Assembly: GCF_000739085.1 (NCBI RefSeq)
Contig: NZ_CP009110.1
Location: forward strand, 558,001 to 622,000
Origin: Amycolatopsis methanolica 239
Lineage (GTDB): Bacteria > Actinomycetota > Actinomycetes > Mycobacteriales > Pseudonocardiaceae
Direction: 5' to 3'
DNA length: 64,000 nucleotides
Program-made: the position numbers and the translations under genes
The notes under the pieces: model-generated
The model's database searches: none
Told to the model about the DNA's origin: nothing
The model's input: only the letters and a program-made list of their open reading frames with translations
Part shown: positions 28,872-57,154 of the stretch, piece after piece
How the letters are laid out: each line of letters opens with the position of its first letter
Position numbering within the stretch: the stretch's first letter is position 1

Positions 28872-47489
<18,618 letters not shown>

Positions 47490-47496
<7 letters not shown>

Positions 47497-50400
47497 GTCA
47501 GCAGCCGACGGTGGGAGAGCTCCTGCGCGAGGTCACCGACCTGCTGGGGCCCGAGGCGGCGGAGCTGTCCGAGAACGACAGCCTCATCGAGTGGGGCCTC
47601 GACTCGATCCAGCTCATGCAGGTAGCGAACAAGTGGCGCAAGCAGGGCATCAAGGTCGGCTTCGCGAAACTGGCCAAGAACCCGACGCTGGCCGGGTGGC
47701 GGGAGCTCCTGGCCACCGCGGCCGGGGTCGCGCCCGAGCCGGAGGTGACCGTCGAGGTCGACGAGACCGAGCCGTTCCCGCTCGCGTTGATGCAGCACGC
47801 GTACTGGATCGGCCGCGACGAGGAGACCACGCTCGGCTCGGTCGCCGCGCACCTTTACGTCGAGTTCGACGGCCCGGACCTGGACCCGCAGCGCCTGGAC
47901 GTGGCCGTGCGGAAGCTCGTCGCCCGGCACGGGATGCTGCGCGCCGCCTTCCTCGACGACGGCCGCCAGCGGATCCTGCCCGAGCGCGCCCAGCCGTCGC
48001 TGCTCGTGCACGACCTGCGTGACCTGGACGACGAGGCCGAGACGCGTCGCCTTGCCGAGTTGCGGGACGCGTCTTCGCACGCGCGCCTGGACGTGGCGAA
48101 CGGCGAGGTGTTCAAGATCCAGCTCAGCCGGCGGTCCGGCGACCGGGCGCGGCTGCACGTCGACGTCGACATGCTCGCCGCCGACGCGTTGAGCTACCGC
48201 GTCCTGCTGTCGGATCTCGCGCGGTTCTACGACGAGCCGGACGCCGAGCCGGAGCCGATCGGCTACAGCTACCCGCGCTACCTCGCCGAACGCGAGGTGA
48301 CCCGCCGGGCCGAGCAGGAGAAGGCCCGCGAGTGGTGGCAGCGGCGGATCCCGGAGCTGCCGGGCGCGCCCGACCTGCCGCTGGTGCCGGAAACCGAGCG
48401 CGCCGACGCCACCCGCGTCACCCGTCGGCACCACTGGCTGGCGCCGGAGGACCGCAAGCGCCTCGGCGCCCGCGCGCACGAGCACGGCCTGACCCCGGCG
48501 ATGGTCGTCGCGGCCGCGTTCGCGGAGACCCTGTCGTCGTGGAGCGCGCAGCCGCGGTTCCTGATGAACCTGCCGATGTTCGACCGGCAGAGCACCCACC
48601 CGGACGTCGACAAGCTGGTCGGCGACTTCACCAGCTCAGTGCTGCTGGAAGTCGATTTCTCGACCGAGGCGTCTTTTGTGGAGCACGCGAAGGCGTTGCA
48701 GGACCGGATGCACGCCGACGCGGAGCACGCCGCGTACTCGGGTGTGGAGGTGCTGCGGGACCTGTCCCGGCACCACGGTGAGCAGGTGCTCGCGCCGGTG
48801 GTGTTCACCAGTGCGCTGAACCTGGGCGAGCTGTTCGACGCACGCGTGCGGCGGTGTTTCGGTGAAGCGGTGTGGATCATCTCGCAGGGGCCGCAGGTGC
48901 TGCTGGACGCGCAGGTCACCGAGGTCAACGAGGGGCTGTTGATCAACTGGGACGTGCGGGAGAACGCCTTCCCGGCCGGGATGATCGACGCGATGTTCGC
49001 CGCGTTCCAGGACCTGATCACCCGGCTCGGCCAGCGGGACGACGCGTGGGAGCAGCCGGTCGGCGGTGCGTTGCCGCGGGAGCAGGCCGAGGTGCGGACG
49101 CGGGTCAACGCGACGGACGGGCCGCGCAGCGGGCGGCTGCTGCAGGACGGGTTCTTCTCGCGTGCCGTCGCGCAGCCGGACGCGCCTGCGCTGCTGTGGG
49201 GCACGGATGGAGTACTCAGCTACGGCGCTTTGCGGGACCGGGCGCTGCGGATCGCGAAGTCGTTGCAGAACAAGGGTGTTGTGCCCGGTGACCTGGTCGG
49301 GGTGAGCCTGCCGAAGGGGCCGGACCAGATCGCCGCGGTGCTCGGCGTGCTGGCCGCGGGCGCCGGGTACGTGCCGGTCGGTGTCGACCAACCCGCGGCG
49401 CGGGCGGAGCGGATCCGGCGGATCGCCGGGTTCTCGCATGTGCTGACGTCCGCCGAGGAGGCGGCCGAGCCGCTCGCCGAGCCGGTGCGCGTGGACGAGG
49501 AGCAGATCGCGTACGTGCTGTTCACGTCCGGTTCGACGGGGGAGCCGAAGGGCGTGGAGGTGCCGCACCGGGCGGCGATGAACACGATCGACGACCTCAA
49601 CGAGCGGTTCGCGGTGGGTGCCGACGACCGGTGCCTCGCGGTGTCCGCGCTGGACTTCGACCTGTCCGTGTACGACGTCTTCGGCCTGCTGTCCGCGGGC
49701 GGCGCGGTCGTGCTGGTGGAGGAGGGCGACCGCAAGGAGGCGCGGCAGTGGGTCGAGCTGGCTGCCTCGCGCCGGGTCACGCTGGTCAACTGCGTGCCAG
49801 CGCTGCTGGACATGCTGCTGTCCGCGGCGCGGCCGGGTGAGCTGAGCGGGTTGCGGACGGTGTTGCTGGGCGGTGACTGGGTCGGCACGGACCTGCCCGG
49901 CCGGGTGGCGGAGCAGGCGCCGCGGTGCCGGTTCGCCGGGCTCGGCGGCACCACGGAGACGGCGATCCATTCGACGGTGTGCGAGGTGCACGGGGTGCCG
50001 TCGTCGTGGCGTTCGGTGCCGTACGGAACACCGCTGCGGAACGTCGTGTGCCGGGTGGTGGACGTGCGGGGCCGGGACTGCCCGGACTGGGTCGCGGGGG
50101 AGTTGTGGATCGGCGGCGACGGGGTCGCCCACGGGTACCGGGCGGATCCGGAGCGGACCGCGGACCGGTTCGTGGAGCACGACGGCCGCCGCTGGTACCG
50201 CACGGGCGATTTGGCGCGGTACTGGCCGGACGGCACGCTGGAGTTCCTGGGGCGCCGGGACTTCCAGGTGAAGGTGCGCGGGGTGCGGATCGAGCTGGGC
50301 GAGGTGGAGGCCGCGCTGGCTGAGTTCCCCGCGGTGCACCGGGGCGTCGCGGGCGTGGCGGGCAACCAGCTCGTGGCGGCCGTCGGCGGCTCGGTGGACG

Positions 50401-50873
50401 GCGACGAGGTCCGGGAGTTCGTGCGAACGTTGTTGCCGCCGCACATGGTCCCGGCTCGCGTGGTGGTGCTGGACGCCTTGCCGCTGACCGCGAACGGCAA
50501 GGTGGACCGCCGCGCGGTGGCGGCGCACTGGCAGGCGTCGGCGGACAGTTACGTCGCGCCGGAGACTCCGTTGGAGCAGGTGCTGGCCAAGGTGTGGGCC
50601 GAGGTGCTCGGAGTGGCACGCGTAGGCCGCGACGACCCGTTCTTCGCACTCGGCGGAGACTCCGTGCTGGCGACGATGATCGTCGGCCGCCTGCGGGAAG
50701 CGCTGGACACGTCGGAAGTGACTGTGCGTACGCTGTTCTCGGCGCTGACGGTGGGCGCGATGGCGGCGCGCTTGGCGGCCGACCAGTCGGTGCCCGGGCG
50801 CCTGGAGCAGGTGGCGGAGATCTACCTGGAGGTGGACGCGCTCTCCGAGGAGGACGTGAACGCGCAGTTGTGA
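47490..50873 (+). CDS. Starter NRPS ArCP-Cy-A-T
   Basis: The 1127-residue protein opens with an aryl carrier domain (WGLDSIQL, Ser39), then a heterocyclisation domain whose motif D-M-L-A-A-D at 227-232 replaces HHxxxDG, an A domain ([11 protein letters not shown] near 677; [10 protein letters not shown]) and a T domain (Ser1058), ending with an acidic SEEDVNAQL tail. The architecture equals MbtB without its thioesterase. Aryl acid from the AMP ligase is condensed with Ser, Thr or Cys and cyclised to a hydroxyphenyl-oxazoline or thiazoline. The code DLYNLGLIHK agrees with the Cys code at eight of ten positions, while Gly301 and His331 recall Thr codes, so the residue is undecided. The GTG overlaps the previous stop by seven bases. 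Confidence 0.95.
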
Positions 50874-51261: not shown

Positions 51262-52278
51262 TCAACCCAGCTTCGCCAACCCAGGCTTCAACTTCTCCAG
51301 CACCCACGGAATGTCCAGCACCGTGGGAGCACGCAGCGCCGAGATCGTCTCCATGTCGACGACCAGGTAGTTGCCGGCCTTGATGGGGGCCACCAGCTGG
51401 TTGCCCTCGAACGCCGTCTGGTAGTCGGGCGAGGTGTAGGCGACGATCACCAGGTCCGCGGCGAGCTTGTCGTACTGCTCCGGGGTCAGCGAACCGGTCG
51501 GGCTGCCCGCGTCGGTCTGCGCGGCGTCTGTCACCGTCGGGCTCAGCTTCAGGCCGAGCGACTCCACGAGCTGCACCGCGAAGTCCTTCTGCGACACCAG
51601 CGTGAACATCTTGCCCGCGGTGTTGCCGACCGACGCGGTGAACGTCTTGCCCACCGCGTTCGGGTACTGCGCCTTCAGCTGGTCGATCGCGCCCTGGGTG
51701 TTCGTCTCGACCTGCTTCGCGTCGGCGGTCTTGCCGAGCGCCCGCGCGACCACGTCGAGGTGTTCCTGCCAGCTCTGCGAACCCCACTCGGTCGCGTAGC
51801 CGATCGTCGGCGCGATCTTGGACAGGTTCGCGTACTCCTCTTCGAGGCCGTAGTCCGCGGTCGCGAGGATCAGGTCCGGCGTGAGCGCCCCGACCTGTTC
51901 GGCGTTGACACCACTCGCCGCGTTGACGATCTGCGTCTTGGCCGGGCCGACCTTGCCCTCCAGCCAGGACGGCACACCGTCCATCCCGGACTTGTTGAAG
52001 AACGCGACCGGCGTGACACCGAGCGCGACGGCCGCGTCGAGGTCGTCGGTCGACGTGCCGATCACGACGACGCGCTGCGGCGCCTTCTCGATCGTCGTGG
52101 TGCCGAACTTGTGCGTGATGCTCACCGGGAAGGCCGACGCGTCGGCACTCGCTGAGGACGCCGTCTGCGTCGACGAATCCTGCACATTGCCACACGCCAC
52201 GAGCCCGAGGCCGAGCACACCCGCGACCGAAGCGGCCACGAGTGAGCGGAGTCCGGGCAGGCGAACCCTGCGAGACAT
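51262..52278 (-). CDS. Ferri-siderophore-binding lipoprotein (FepB/FecB family)
   Basis: The 338-residue product has a lipoprotein signal with LVAC and lipid Cys at 29, a Ser/Ala linker, then a class III periplasmic-binding fold: FGTTTIEKAPQRVVVIGTSTDDLDAAVALGVTPVAF, LTPDLILAT, and a C-terminal YLVVDMETISALRAPTVLDIPWVLEKLKPGL. It captures the ferric siderophore for the FepD/FepG-like permeases. The ATG at 52278 (AAAGGG upstream) gives a proper signal peptide, whereas an ATG 15 codons earlier would place residues before it. An iron box lies 42-60 bases upstream. Confidence 0.93.
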   Translation of the reverse strand: MSRRVRLPGLRSLVAASVAGVLGLGLVACGNVQDSSTQTASSASADASAFPVSITHKFGTTTIEKAPQRVVVIGTSTDDLDAAVALGVTPVAFFNKSGMDGVPSWLEGKVGPAKTQIVNAASGVNAEQVGALTPDLILATADYGLEEEYANLSKIAPTIGYATEWGSQSWQEHLDVVARALGKTADAKQVETNTQGAIDQLKAQYPNAVGKTFTASVGNTAGKMFTLVSQKDFAVQLVESLGLKLSPTVTDAAQTDAGSPTGSLTPEQYDKLAADLVIVAYTSPDYQTAFEGNQLVAPIKAGNYLVVDMETISALRAPTVLDIPWVLEKLKPGLAKLG

Positions 52279-52319
52279 GGCAACACCCTTTCGAAGGAAC
52301 TGCGACAAATTGCGCCAAG

Positions 52320-52338
52320 TCAAGCAAGGCTAACCTAA
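52320..52338 (-). promoter_or_regulatory. DtxR/IdeR iron box of binding-protein gene
   Basis: On the minus strand it reads TTAGGTTAGCCTTGCTTGA, with the first twelve bases matching the consensus. It should repress the uptake gene when iron is plentiful. Confidence 0.85.
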
Positions 52339-52384: not shown

Positions 52385-54505
52385 TCACCCAGCTAGGCGC
52401 AGGTCCCAGCCCTCCGGCAGCCCCCGAACCTTGGCCACTTCGTGATCTGCCTCGACGTGCACGGTGAGCTCGCCGAGTCGCAGGTCCGACAACCGCACCC
52501 GGCCCCACTGCCCCGGCAGGTGCGGTCGGACCACCAGCCGGTGCTGCGGCACGTGCGGTTCGAGCCCGAGGAACGACCGCACCAGCAGCAACGGCGCCGC
52601 GCTCGCCCAGGCCTGCGGCGAACACGACGTCGGGTAGGGGATCGGCGGGCTGAACTCCGATCGCGAGAACCCGCAGAACAGCTCGGGCAGCCGGCCGCCG
52701 AACGAAGCCGCGGCGTCGAGCAGTCCGGTCGCCAGCCGCTGCGCCAGGTCCACCGCGCCCGGCAGGTGCGCGTACCGCAGCAGCCCGGCCACCGCGATCG
52801 CCGTGTCGTGCGGCCATACCGAGCCGTTGTGGTAGCTCATCGGGTTGTACGCGCCCATCGCCGAGGAAAGCGTCCGCAGCCCGTAGCCGCTGTCCATCTC
52901 CGGCCTGCTGAGCCGCTCGATCAGCACCGCGGCGTGCTCGTCGGTCGCGATGCCTGACCACAGGCAGTGCGCGGTGTTGCTGGTCAGCGCGTCGAGCGGC
53001 TGCTTGCGACCATCCAGCGCGACGGCGTACCAGCCCTGCTCCGGCAGCCAGAACGCCTCGGCGAACCGCTCCCGCAGCCGTTCGGCGCGCTCCCGGCAGC
53101 GCGCCGAGGTGGCCGGGTCGTTGAACGCGTCGGCCAGTTCGGCGCGCGCCAGCCAGGCCGCGTAGGCGTAGCCCTGCACCTCGCACAACGCGATCGGCGT
53201 GGTCGCCAGCCGCCCGGCCGCGTCGTTGATGCCGTCGAAGCTGTCCTTCCAGCCCTGGTTGAGCAGGCCACGGTCGGTCGCCCGCCGGTACTCGACGAAC
53301 CCGTCGCCGTCCCGGTCGCCGTAGCGTTCCAGCCATTCCAGGGCCGCGTCGGCGGCCGGGAGCAGCGCCCGCACCGCCGTCTCGCCCGCGCCCCAGCGCC
53401 AGCACTCGGCCAGCAGCATGACGAACAGCGGCGACGCGTCCACCGTGCCGTAGTAGTGGCTGCCGCCGAGCACCTGGTCGCTGTCCGGACCGAGCCGCAG
53501 CTCGTGCAGGATCCGGCCGGGCTCCTCCTCGGTCAATGGGTCGACACGCTTGCCCTGCAGCTCCGCCAGCGTCTCCAGCGTGCCCAGCGCGAGCCCGACG
53601 TCCAGTGGCAGCGCCATCCACGCGGTGAGCAGGCTGTCCCGCCCGAACAACGTCATGAACCAGGGCGCGCCTGCCGCGACGAACGGGCGGCCGTCCTGGC
53701 TGCTGTCGTGGATCTGCAACGCGCCGAGATCGCTTTCGGTGCGCTGCAGCACCTGCGTCAGCACCGGGTCGTCGGCCGCGATCATCGTGCTCACGTCGCG
53801 CCACGCGCGGATCTTGCGCGCCGGCCCGCTCGCCTCGACCTCCTCGCCGCGGTCGAACTGCGGCCGCACCCGCCGGTTCCCGACGGTCGGCTGCACCACG
53901 ATCTCGGTCGACCACTCGCCGCGGGCAGGCACGACGACCCGCCAGTTCAGCACGCCGGGCGCGGCCAGCGGGTCCGCGGTGGCGCTCACCGACAGGCCGC
54001 GCGAGCCGTCGGACCGGTCGCGCAGCAACAGTTCCGAGCCTGCCACGGTGGCGTCCGCCCCGCCGTGGGCGGGGCGGCCCTCCTTGACCGCGAACAGGTC
54101 CGAGAAGTCCGCATCGACGTGCAGGGTCAGCGTCGCGACGGTGTTCTCCCGCCCGAGGTTCCGCAGCGTGATCGTCTCCCGCAGACCGTCGCCGACCAGC
54201 CGCTCCCGCACGAGTAGAAGGGTGCTGTCGGCCTGGCCCGGCTTGGGGTTGCGGCGCAGCACGAACTGCGCCGCGAACGCCTCCGGCGAGATGACCGACA
54301 GCGGGTGCGGGGACTGCCCGTCCAGCCGCAGCTCCCACCGCGAGACCAGCCGCGCGTCCCGGAAGAACAGGCCTTGCGACGTGCCCGGCTGGATGTCGCC
54401 GTTGGTGCCGGACAGGCAGAACGTGCTGCCCTCGACGAGCGTGACCGTGCCGCCCGCGCTGGTCACGGGCACCGGTTCGCCCGCGTTGAACGCTTCCGGC
54501 GTCAT
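52385..54505 (-). CDS. Amylo-alpha-1,6-glucosidase / glycogen-debranching-like enzyme
   Basis: The 706-residue product has an N-terminal beta domain of bacterial debranching enzymes (about 15-210; FCLSGTNGDIQPGTSQGLFFRDARLVSRWEL) and an (alpha/alpha)6-barrel (about 260-640; APWFMTLFGRDSLLTAWMALP, DRDGDGFVEYRR, GLLNQGWKDSFD, GYAYAAWLARAEL, NPMSYHNGSVWPHDTAIAV). The Asp in FGRDS and the Asp/Glu residues near GWKDS and WPHD are probable catalytic or sugar-binding acids. It is GH15/GH63-like and cytosolic, acting on alpha-glucans or related oligosaccharides. Its start overlaps the stop of the glycosyltransferase gene (ATGA), so both fall under the CIRCE-bearing promoter. Confidence 0.85.
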   Translation of the reverse strand: MTPEAFNAGEPVPVTSAGGTVTLVEGSTFCLSGTNGDIQPGTSQGLFFRDARLVSRWELRLDGQSPHPLSVISPEAFAAQFVLRRNPKPGQADSTLLLVRERLVGDGLRETITLRNLGRENTVATLTLHVDADFSDLFAVKEGRPAHGGADATVAGSELLLRDRSDGSRGLSVSATADPLAAPGVLNWRVVVPARGEWSTEIVVQPTVGNRRVRPQFDRGEEVEASGPARKIRAWRDVSTMIAADDPVLTQVLQRTESDLGALQIHDSSQDGRPFVAAGAPWFMTLFGRDSLLTAWMALPLDVGLALGTLETLAELQGKRVDPLTEEEPGRILHELRLGPDSDQVLGGSHYYGTVDASPLFVMLLAECWRWGAGETAVRALLPAADAALEWLERYGDRDGDGFVEYRRATDRGLLNQGWKDSFDGINDAAGRLATTPIALCEVQGYAYAAWLARAELADAFNDPATSARCRERAERLRERFAEAFWLPEQGWYAVALDGRKQPLDALTSNTAHCLWSGIATDEHAAVLIERLSRPEMDSGYGLRTLSSAMGAYNPMSYHNGSVWPHDTAIAVAGLLRYAHLPGAVDLAQRLATGLLDAAASFGGRLPELFCGFSRSEFSPPIPYPTSCSPQAWASAAPLLLVRSFLGLEPHVPQHRLVVRPHLPGQWGRVRLSDLRLGELTVHVEADHEVAKVRGLPEGWDLRLAG

Positions 54506-55719
54506 GGCCGTCCTCCGGATGGCTGCAGGGTGGGGCCGTCGTTGTCCATCTGGTCGTAGGCGCGGTCGAGCGCCGAGTCCAGGGCCGCGTAGTCGCGACG
54601 CAGCCGGCTGACCTCGACCGCCCGCCGGTACGCGGCCTCGTAGCCGGCGCCCAGCCCGCCGACGTCGAAGTGCTCGGCGACGTGCGCGCGGCACTTGGCC
54701 GGGTCGAGGTGGCCGACGTCGTGCAGGGCCTGCACCAGGTCGGCCGGGTCGTCGCGCACCAGGCCGGTGACGCCCTCCACGACGACCTCCGGCACCGCGC
54801 CGGACCGCAGCGCCACCACCGGCGTGCCGCACGCCATCGCCTCGATCATGACCATCCCGAACGGCTCCTCCCACTGGATCGGGAAGAGCAGGCAGCGGGC
54901 CTTGGCGAGCAGCTCGCGCTTCGCGGTCGCGTCGGCGACGCCGAACACGTGGTCGTTGTCGGTGAGCCGCGGCCGGACCTCCCGCTCGAAGTACTCCTTC
55001 TCGATCGGCTCGGCGCACTTGCCCGCCAGGACCAGTCGCAGCCCGGCGCGGTGCGCGGCCTCCAGCGCGAGGTGCGGCGCCTTGTCCGGGTGGAACCGGC
55101 CGAGGAACAACGCGTAGTCGTCCTTTTCGGCCTGGAACGGCCAGTCGGCCAGCCGCAGTGCGTTGTGGACGGTGCCGATCCAGTTCAGGCCGGGCGCCAG
55201 CTCGCGCTGCCGGTCGCTGATCGCCACCAGGTGCACGTCGTCGCCCAGTTCGGTGTAGTAGCGCGCCATGTCCTCGCCGACCGGGCCGTGCACGGTCACC
55301 ACAGTCGGCACGCCGTATGCGGGGGCGTTGAGCGGGCCGGCCAGCGAGTGGTCGTGCACGACGTCGACGCCCTCGGTCGCGGCGAGCCGCTGCACCGCCC
55401 GGCGCGCGGCGATGGCGTGCATGACCTCCGGGTAGGGCTCGCCGAGCAGTTCGGGCACGGTGCGGTCCCAGACCGGGACGAACCGCGCCTTCGTGCCGGG
55501 ACGGCCCGCGCCGATCAGGGTGACGTGGTGCCCGCGGTCGACGAGGGCGTCCGCGAGGTCGGCCACGACCGCCTCGACCCCGCCGTAGGCCTTCGGAGGA
55601 ACGTCGAAGTAGGGCGGGACGACCATCGCCACGCGGAGCGGGCGGTCGGGGTCGTCCCGTCGCACGGCGGCGTGCGAAACAGATCGGGCTTTCCACGCGG
55701 GGCGGTGCGCGCTGCTCAA
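54502..55719 (-). CDS. GT4 glycosyltransferase
   Basis: The 405-residue product is a GT-B enzyme: VAMVVPPYFDVPPKAYGGVEAVV with the acceptor-side glycine loop (about 30-52), DVVHDHSLAG, TVHGPVGEDMA, FLGRFHPDKAPHLALEAA (about 205-222) and the donor-binding EEPFGMVMIEAMACGTPVVAL (about 290-310, E-x7-E motif). It starts with TTG, four bases after a strong GAGGAGG. Relatives make alpha-glucosides or mannosides from nucleotide-sugar donors; the partner debranching gene points to alpha-glucan metabolism. The promoter carries a perfect CIRCE operator, predicting heat-shock control. Confidence 0.88.
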   Translation of the reverse strand: MSSAHRPAWKARSVSHAAVRRDDPDRPLRVAMVVPPYFDVPPKAYGGVEAVVADLADALVDRGHHVTLIGAGRPGTKARFVPVWDRTVPELLGEPYPEVMHAIAARRAVQRLAATEGVDVVHDHSLAGPLNAPAYGVPTVVTVHGPVGEDMARYYTELGDDVHLVAISDRQRELAPGLNWIGTVHNALRLADWPFQAEKDDYALFLGRFHPDKAPHLALEAAHRAGLRLVLAGKCAEPIEKEYFEREVRPRLTDNDHVFGVADATAKRELLAKARCLLFPIQWEEPFGMVMIEAMACGTPVVALRSGAVPEVVVEGVTGLVRDDPADLVQALHDVGHLDPAKCRAHVAEHFDVGGLGAGYEAAYRRAVEVSRLRRDYAALDSALDRAYDQMDNDGPTLQPSGGRP

Positions 55720-55745
55720 GCTGCCTCCTCGGACCGTCTATGCAA

Positions 55746-55772
55746 TTAGCACTCTCCTACTAAGAGTGCTAA
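55746..55772 (-). promoter_or_regulatory. CIRCE element (HrcA operator), perfect match
   Basis: TTAGCACTC (55746-55754), nine spacer bases and GAGTGCTAA (55764-55772) form the exact CIRCE consensus with the canonical spacing. It ends 27 bases before the TTG of the glycosyltransferase gene. HrcA binding here would repress the glycosyltransferase/debranching operon at normal temperature. No groES/groEL gene is nearby. Confidence 0.93.
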
Positions 55773-55818
55773 TACAGCGGCGCGCACCTCGGCAAGCTCC
55801 GGGTGTGGGAGATCTGTG

Positions 55819-57117
55819 TCACACGGTAATCCGCCTCGCCGCGAGGACGCCCGCGAGTCCGAGTGCCGCGGTCCCGGCGAGGACCGCGAGGAACGCCGCC
55901 GGTGCCGCGCCTTCCGCCGCGATGAGCGACCGAGTCCACTCGCGACAGCCGTGGCCAGGGTCTGCGCCAGCTGGAGCGCCGCGCTGACCGAGCCCTGTTG
56001 CTCGTCGGGGCGCGGCCGAGGGTCTCGGTGGTGGCGGCGTTGAACGCGACACCCATGCCGGCTCCGCCGATCACCCAGCCGAGCGCCGCGAGCAGCCCTG
56101 GACCGACGAGTACGCCGTAGGCCAGTACCGCCACCTCGGCCACCAGGACTGCGAAACCCAGACCCACCGCCATCCGCCGGTTGCGGTCCCAGTTCGCTTG
56201 CGCTGCCGAGCCGGCCACCCAGCTCAGCGCCCCGGCCGACAGGCCCAGGCCGGCTTCGAAGGCGCTCACGTGCCGAAGTTCGGTCAACCCCAGCGGCAGG
56301 AACGCCCCGGTGCCGAAGTACACCGCGCACAGCAGGAACCGCACGACCACCCCGGCGGGGACGCCGCGCCGGACGACGAGCGTCCCGGCCAGGGTGACCT
56401 GCCGCAGCGCCAGGATGGCGAGGGCGAAACCGGCGGAGGCGAGCGGAACCAGCACCGCGACGGCGCGGAGTTCCAGTACGGCCAACAGGATCGCGGTTCC
56501 CGCGGCGAGCGCGGTGCTGCTGACGAGCGGCCGCCACCGGGACGATCGCAGGGTCGTGGCGGCCGGCCGTGCCAGTCCGGGGAGCGTGCACCAGCCCGCG
56601 ACCCCGGCGAGCGGGATCATGGCCAGGAACACCCACCGCCAGCCCGCCGAACTCGCCACCGCCGCCGCGACGACCGGGCCGGCCAGCGACGGGATCGTCC
56701 AGGCCGAGGACAGCAGCGCGAACATGCTGGCATGCAGCCGTTCGGGGTAGACCAGCCCGATCAGCGTGTAGGCCATCGCCATCACCGCGCCGACCCCGGG
56801 GCCCTGTGTGAACCGGCCGAGCAGGAACACCGGCCACGAGGGGCGAGGCCGGCCAGCGCGCTGCCGAGTGCGAACGCGACCAGCCCGGCGGCAAGCGGAC
56901 GGGCCGGCCCGCCCCGGTCGGCGGCGTGACCGGCGAGGACGGTGTCGACGATGTTGGCCAGCATCAGCGCGGCCAAGGCCCAGCCGTAGGAGCCGAGGCC
57001 GCCGAGCAGGCGGGAGATGTCCGGGAGGATGGTCGCCACCCCGAGGGATTCGAGCGCGACCAGTCCGACGGTGAGCACGATGCCGACGGTGCGGGCCCGG
57101 TAGCGGGCCGAGAGCAC
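55819..57117 (-). pseudogene. MFS drug-efflux transporter, frameshifted
   Basis: An MFS protein of about 14-helix type can be read only by changing frame three times. The start at GTG 57117 gives VGIVLTVGLVALESLGVATILP and GHAADRGGPARPLAAGLV. Near 56840 the frame shifts to FLLGRFTQGPGVGAVMAMAYTL and runs to FNAATTETLGRAPTSN. Near 56015 it shifts to QQGSVSAALQLAQTLATAVA. Near 55935 it shifts to SLIAAEGAAPAAFLAVLAG and ends at 55819. Each piece is well conserved in kind, so decay is recent or the sequence has indel errors in GC runs. It is divergent from a TetR gene, the usual regulator of such pumps. Confidence 0.8.
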
Positions 57118-57154
57118 CCTCGGAAGCCGGGGAGAGGGTCATGGCGGCGATTAT

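Follow-up and report, generated by a model that had tools for sequence, protein, structure and literature searches.

A CIRCE element conserved upstream of a GT4 glycosyltransferase-glycosidase operon predicts a carbohydrate target of HrcA in Amycolatopsis methanolica and related actinobacteria

A perfect CIRCE element was found directly before an operon that encodes a GT4 glycosyltransferase and a GDE-type glycosidase, an arrangement from which repression of the operon by HrcA is likely. The element occupies positions 55746-55772 of the window, i.e. of the whole stretch of 64,000 nucleotides that was analysed, and this inverted repeat is assigned to neither strand. It showed no mismatch to the CIRCE consensus TTAGCACTC-N9-GAGTGCTAA, so that the exact 9-9-9 structure reported in the initial annotation was confirmed, and it was found at the same place in relatives. 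The element very probably is a working HrcA operator, and its conservation marks the GT4-GDE operon as a likely, predicted HrcA target.

On the minus strand, a TTGCCG box was followed by CIRCE, a Shine-Dalgarno-like box, the GT4 gene and the GDE-type gene. The TTGCCG box (55790-55795, minus strand) resembles a -35 box with a predicted promoter role and lies 17 nt before the first base of CIRCE. The GT4 gene (54502-55719, minus strand) encodes 405 aa from a TTG start, with PF00534, PF13692 and PF13439 over cut-off, and the GDE-type gene (52385-54505, minus strand), amylo-alpha-1,6-glucosidase-like, encodes 706 aa from an ATG, with PF14742, PF22422 and PF06202 over cut-off. CIRCE is separated from the TTG at 55719 by 26 bases and not by 27, as had first been counted. 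The strong ribosome binding site noted in the initial annotation corresponds to GAGGAGG at 55724-55730 (minus strand), a box read from the sequence 4 bases upstream of the TTG. Likewise, the four-base overlap of the two sugar genes was borne out as ATGA, the GT4 gene ending at 54502 and the ATG of the GDE gene lying at 54505. In many database entries the GT4 protein has 387 aa, i.e. 18 residues fewer than the form starting at TTG. Both the TTG start and the GAGGAGG box are kept in the nearest relatives, and CIRCE lies upstream of the GT4 gene whichever start applies. Beyond CIRCE, a stretch encoding an MFS transporter (55769-57142, minus strand) lies on the same strand and is directed toward CIRCE, so that CIRCE can precede no gene set other than the GT4 operon; the MFS gene was thus ruled out as its target. 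This stretch is split over several reading frames in the window, while in the Amycolatopsis thermalba relative (L005) it forms a single open frame of 456 codons; in the window it represents either a decayed gene or the result of sequencing errors.

To place the element within the HrcA/CIRCE set of the genome, the single contig of 7,237,391 bases (7.24 Mb) was searched at up to three mismatches. Five sites were obtained, among which that at 55746-55772 was the sole perfect one, and the reversed control pattern yielded no site in the whole genome. The other four sites lie before groES (Cpn10, L002), a zinc-ribbon gene (Zn_ribbon_8, L003) and groEL (Cpn60, L004), the last having a tandem pair. 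A single hrcA gene was detected (206.6 bits, the cut-off being 22.2), followed by dnaJ. In the passages of PMC7448276 cited here, direct repression by HrcA of M. tuberculosis comprises three genes of the Hsp60/Hsp10 family and ruc (Rv0991c), itself an HrcA-repressed chaperone gene. Judged by its domain and its CIRCE, the zinc-ribbon gene appears to be the counterpart of ruc. The genome thus resembles the described actinobacterial regulon (groES-groEL1, groEL2 and ruc in M. tuberculosis) in having the same operator at groES, groEL and a ruc-like gene and in having one hrcA gene. It differs in that the additional target is a carbohydrate operon, whereas the four direct targets given for M. tuberculosis in those passages are the three Hsp60/Hsp10-family genes and ruc. 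The four other sites thus stand at gene kinds already described, and the fifth and best-matching one marks the sugar operon. In 14 further genomes, chosen by their known state (12 with and 2 without the GT4 site), three to six CIRCE sites per genome were found at up to two mismatches; the GT4 site was present in 12 of the 14 and was perfect in 11 of these 12. In one of the genomes resembling mycobacteria, a second perfect CIRCE (L195, G290:C1:841343-841369) was observed where an open frame reads like an HxlR-type regulator, which is another possible non-chaperone target of HrcA, as far as the sequence goes. Control by HspR was considered as well and rejected for the class sample described below, since the best matches to the HAIR consensus had at least four mismatches in all 46 loci of that set.

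The initial annotation had proposed that relatives be searched for CIRCE before orthologous GT4-debranching pairs, and such sites were indeed found in members of the Pseudonocardiaceae, in Mycobacterium, in a Glycomyces and in two Nocardia. Among the loci most similar in GDE (the best 80 of 540 candidates), CIRCE was present at up to four mismatches in 23, all of them at two or fewer, with one site per locus and always upstream of GT4. A GT4 gene was adjacent in 66 of these 80 loci and all 23 sites belonged to these 66; the 14 loci without an adjacent GT4 gene had no CIRCE. Within the 66 loci, grouped by the titles of their records, the element was carried by all eight Pseudonocardiaceae, by 12 of 13 Mycobacterium/Mycolicibacterium, by the single Glycomyces and by 2 of 42 Nocardia, and by neither of two metagenome-assembled genomes. 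The earlier assignment of the link to "this lineage" was consequently too narrow, as several families carry CIRCE, but also too wide, as 40 of the 42 Nocardia loci in that set are without it.

Samples drawn by taxonomy gave the following picture, CIRCE being counted at up to two mismatches for the class, the family and the mycobacterial genus. Among 394 genomes sampled evenly over the class, 43 had a GT4 match, our own included, and CIRCE was present in 5 of the 46 other places taken. In the family sample (200 genomes, 40 matched including our own), 16 of 42 other places carried it: 16 of 18 loci with at least 76% identity, and none of 24 loci with 51-60% identity. The two close family loci that lacked it were L145, in which the left arm is kept and the right arm damaged (5 mismatches), and L152, in which no CIRCE is recognisable (6 mismatches). 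The mycobacterial genus sample was drawn from the genus of G290, whose GT4 protein groups with those of named Mycobacterium; 29 of 248 genomes matched with 34 places, and CIRCE was found in 27 of the 30 places taken, including a locus whose GT4 protein shares 95% identity with P0102 of M. smegmatis. Three genomes (G082, G290 and G383) are common to this sample and the class sample. The order sample (377 genomes, 28 matched including our own, 31 places) contributed 13 new loci, of which two had CIRCE, although one of these may repeat the Glycomyces locus already counted. Two loci of a Glycomyces-like genus (L200 and L202) showed a decayed CIRCE upstream of GT4 with 6 mismatches each and at about the same distance, and their relative L197 was observed to have a perfect CIRCE at about that place, indicating that the element comes and goes within one genus. 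In at least two loci, L079 and L098, the available sequence before GT4 is short (about 10 and 140 bases, respectively); they were counted as without CIRCE, although a site might lie beyond the sequence end. As to the operon, its distribution is patchy and it is accessory; no GT4 match at threshold was found in 160 of the 200 family genomes and in 219 of the 248 genomes of the mycobacterial genus.

To follow the history of the site, 147 distinct GT4 proteins and TeGSS, a solved glucosylsucrose synthase, were placed in a FastTree tree; eight duplicate proteins had been dropped and some long branches were flagged. CIRCE was carried by 38 of the 147, the protein of the window included. Seven changes suffice to explain this distribution, compared with at least 29 in 200 shuffles of the labels, these counts not separating gain from loss. 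Two deep branches with CIRCE were represented by L103, whose site lies 392 nt upstream of the point where the aligned GT4 begins, and by L106 (genome G299). The latter was observed to have a CIRCE with one mismatch upstream of a GT4 gene with no GDE alongside, so that in this locus the function under regulation may be that of GT4 by itself. The presence of the site in these deep branches reflects either retention or separate gains.

Fixed-distance boxes were found around CIRCE in two groups of relatives. A TTG box stands 16-17 nt ahead of the first CIRCE base in all 18 distinct Pseudonocardiaceae rows, apart from the window, which also has the box, and in Glycomyces. An (C/A/G)ATAAT hexamer ending on the first T of CIRCE was present in all 16 Mycobacterium/Nocardia rows, and ATAAT stood at the same position in 25 of the 27 loci from the later mycobacterial genus sample; L103 and L106 had neither the TTG box nor the hexamer. 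The fixed distances suggest that CIRCE overlies the predicted core promoter in both the Pseudonocardiaceae/Glycomyces and the Mycobacterium/Nocardia groups, but a simple sigma-70 and terminator scan of the window, which returned no promoter and no terminator, speaks against this prediction.

To judge how often such a site might arise by chance, the best mismatch counts were compiled for 154 pooled GT4 loci from the first three samples (GDE, class and family, duplicates included). There were no mismatches in 25 loci, one in 16, two in 3, five in 1 and six to ten in 109, so that 44 of the 154 carried CIRCE at two or fewer. Among 3,080 first-order Markov sequences, none had a site at up to three mismatches, two had one at up to four and 27 at up to five; dinucleotide shuffles of the window gave none at up to three mismatches in 100. 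CIRCE is conserved beyond chance, and a chance origin was rejected on the basis of the window shuffles, the reversed-pattern control and the random sequences. The decayed forms in L200, L202 and L145 and the many Nocardia without CIRCE would fit a chance or relic sequence with no present function; against the perfect match in the window and in the pooled loci, and its failure to appear at this level in random sequences, we consider such a sequence very improbable. Hardly any credence can be given to the idea that the repeat acts as a 5′ mRNA hairpin and not as a repressor site. Lying so close before the start codon, it would be transcribed if initiation took place upstream; however, the letters of its arms hold the HrcA consensus beyond what mere pairing demands, the same motif stands at groES, groEL and the ruc-like gene of this genome, and the boxes place the repeat on the predicted promoter.

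The solved structure nearest to the GT4 protein was glucosylsucrose synthase TeGSS (7fg9/7fga/8x3u; E 3.2e-61), with 39% identity over 333 aligned residues. This enzyme (TeGSS/Tll1591) and alr1000 are described in the cited passages of PMC9909042 as cyanobacterial UDP-glucose:sucrose alpha-1,2-glucosyltransferases, and glucosylsucroses are stated there to increase in cyanobacteria under salt and heat stress, which makes the relative a stress solute enzyme. The donor and catalytic residues Tyr18, Arg179, Lys184 and Glu256 of TeGSS were kept in all 147 GT4 proteins, the protein of the window included, and Trp254 in 146. By contrast, residues on the sucrose side and rim are altered in the GT4 protein of the window (Trp10 to Tyr, Tyr97 to Ala, Arg117 to Pro, Thr119 to Gly and Asn122 to Met). 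Trp10 was kept in 51 of the 147 proteins, mostly in those without CIRCE. The stretch with Tyr70 and Glu74 was aligned differently by the two alignments. The genome contains OtsA, and its best match to the one sucrose-phosphate synthase profile used, which need not find every such enzyme kind, reached 89.7 bits against a cut-off of 576. Given the changed acceptor side and no sucrose-phosphate synthase over cut-off, sucrose was not favoured as acceptor. These comparisons lead us to regard the GT4 protein as a probable retaining glucosyltransferase that uses UDP-glucose and acts on a small acceptor other than sucrose, for which trehalose is plausible. It also differs from the cyanobacterial enzyme in being paired with a GDE-type glycosidase and in standing under a predicted HrcA operator.

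The glycosidase showed GDE_N_bis (158.5 bits) and GDE_C (36.7 bits) domains, with cut-offs of 22.1 and 21. Its nearest solved relative was 7vma, an amylo-alpha-1,6-glucosidase of Thermococcus gammatolerans, which it resembles in domain order by sequence and predicted model and to which it is 30% identical in the structural alignment. The E. coli GH63 enzyme YgjK, also solved with a 2-O-alpha-glucosyl sugar, was a further structural match of the predicted model; this AlphaFold model (mean pLDDT 70.7) was used just for naming structural neighbours. Among the best 80 of 540 loci, the nearest named relative of the GDE came from A. thermalba, with 98% identity in its best segment.

These findings can be joined in one model. 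At normal temperature, HrcA would hold the operon off by sitting on the core promoter and blocking RNA polymerase; heat would inactivate HrcA and release the operon along with the chaperonin genes, as at groESL. The GT4 enzyme would then transfer an alpha-glucosyl unit from UDP-glucose to a small acceptor, for which trehalose is more plausible than sucrose. With the glycosidase removing this unit again, the cell would maintain a pool of a protective oligosaccharide that is adjusted to stress. The model as a whole, with heat-released repression and a small glucosylated solute that is made and recycled, seems to us rather more probable than its competitors together, its standing being below that of the operator because of the solute step. 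It is weakened by the odd placing of synthesis and breakdown of one sugar under a single operator; a pool with fast turnover or a transglycosylating GDE would explain this, which is speculation.

If HrcA controls the operon for another end, the remodelling of alpha-glucan under heat has to be weighed, in which GT4 would extend glycogen chains and GDE would debranch them. The GDE_C (amylo-alpha-1,6-glucosidase) domain over cut-off and the nearest solved relative of the glycosidase speak for it. However, the GT4 protein is closest to an enzyme with a small sugar acceptor, and the glycogen-synthase (GlgA type) models gave it 73.6 and 29.4 bits, far below their cut-offs of 302.4 and 328.45, which leaves glycogen remodelling unlikely. 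Less likely again is that GT4 adds glucose to a lipid or to a glycan of the envelope and that GDE trims the product. PimA and other GT4 enzymes are indeed among the weaker matches, and many of the carriers are mycolic-acid bacteria; yet the soluble glucosylsucrose synthase was by far the best match (against E 5.8e-11 for PimA), and no envelope gene belonged to the conserved pair in the loci compared, where the two neighbours were examined. The initial annotation had placed alpha-glucan remodelling in the HrcA regulon, as glycogen or as an oligosaccharide acting as a thermoprotectant. With the conserved CIRCE the operon stands as a predicted HrcA target, while the glycogen part of that proposal lost ground and the oligosaccharide fits better, the GT4 protein being nearest to glucosylsucrose synthase.

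If a conserved carbohydrate operon belongs to the HrcA regulon, protein quality control would be linked with sugar metabolism, relatives of Amycolatopsis and mycobacteria would be expected to make a stress solute not yet described, and the GT4-GDE pair, which is named just generally in databases, would gain a testable function. More tentatively, and with doubt prevailing, HrcA might also run a chemical-chaperone pathway in several families of actinobacteria, with chaperonins and a new, non-sucrose alpha-glucosyl oligosaccharide (e.g. glucosyl-trehalose), made by GT4 and recycled by GDE, under the same operator. If this were true, help for protein folding and a protective sugar would belong to one heat-shock response. 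The HrcA targets documented for actinobacteria in the cited passages of PMC7448276 are chaperone genes. In the open-licence papers searched, no report of HrcA control of a GT4-GDE-type operon was found, in line with the earlier remark that no description of the link was known; operator and regulator are known, and the carbohydrate operon as a target class is, as far as seen, new.

About 60 bases after the GDE gene, a gene for an iron-siderophore-type binding protein (Peripla_BP_2; 51262-52323, minus strand) was observed. It follows GDE in the window and its closest relatives (L005 and L135-L139), where transcription from the heat-shock promoter may extend into it. It had no match in L006, L007 and L008 and was therefore not counted as a third gene of the conserved unit. 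Beside it lies a long open frame (47250-50873, plus strand) with motifs that presumably belong to a nonribosomal peptide synthetase.
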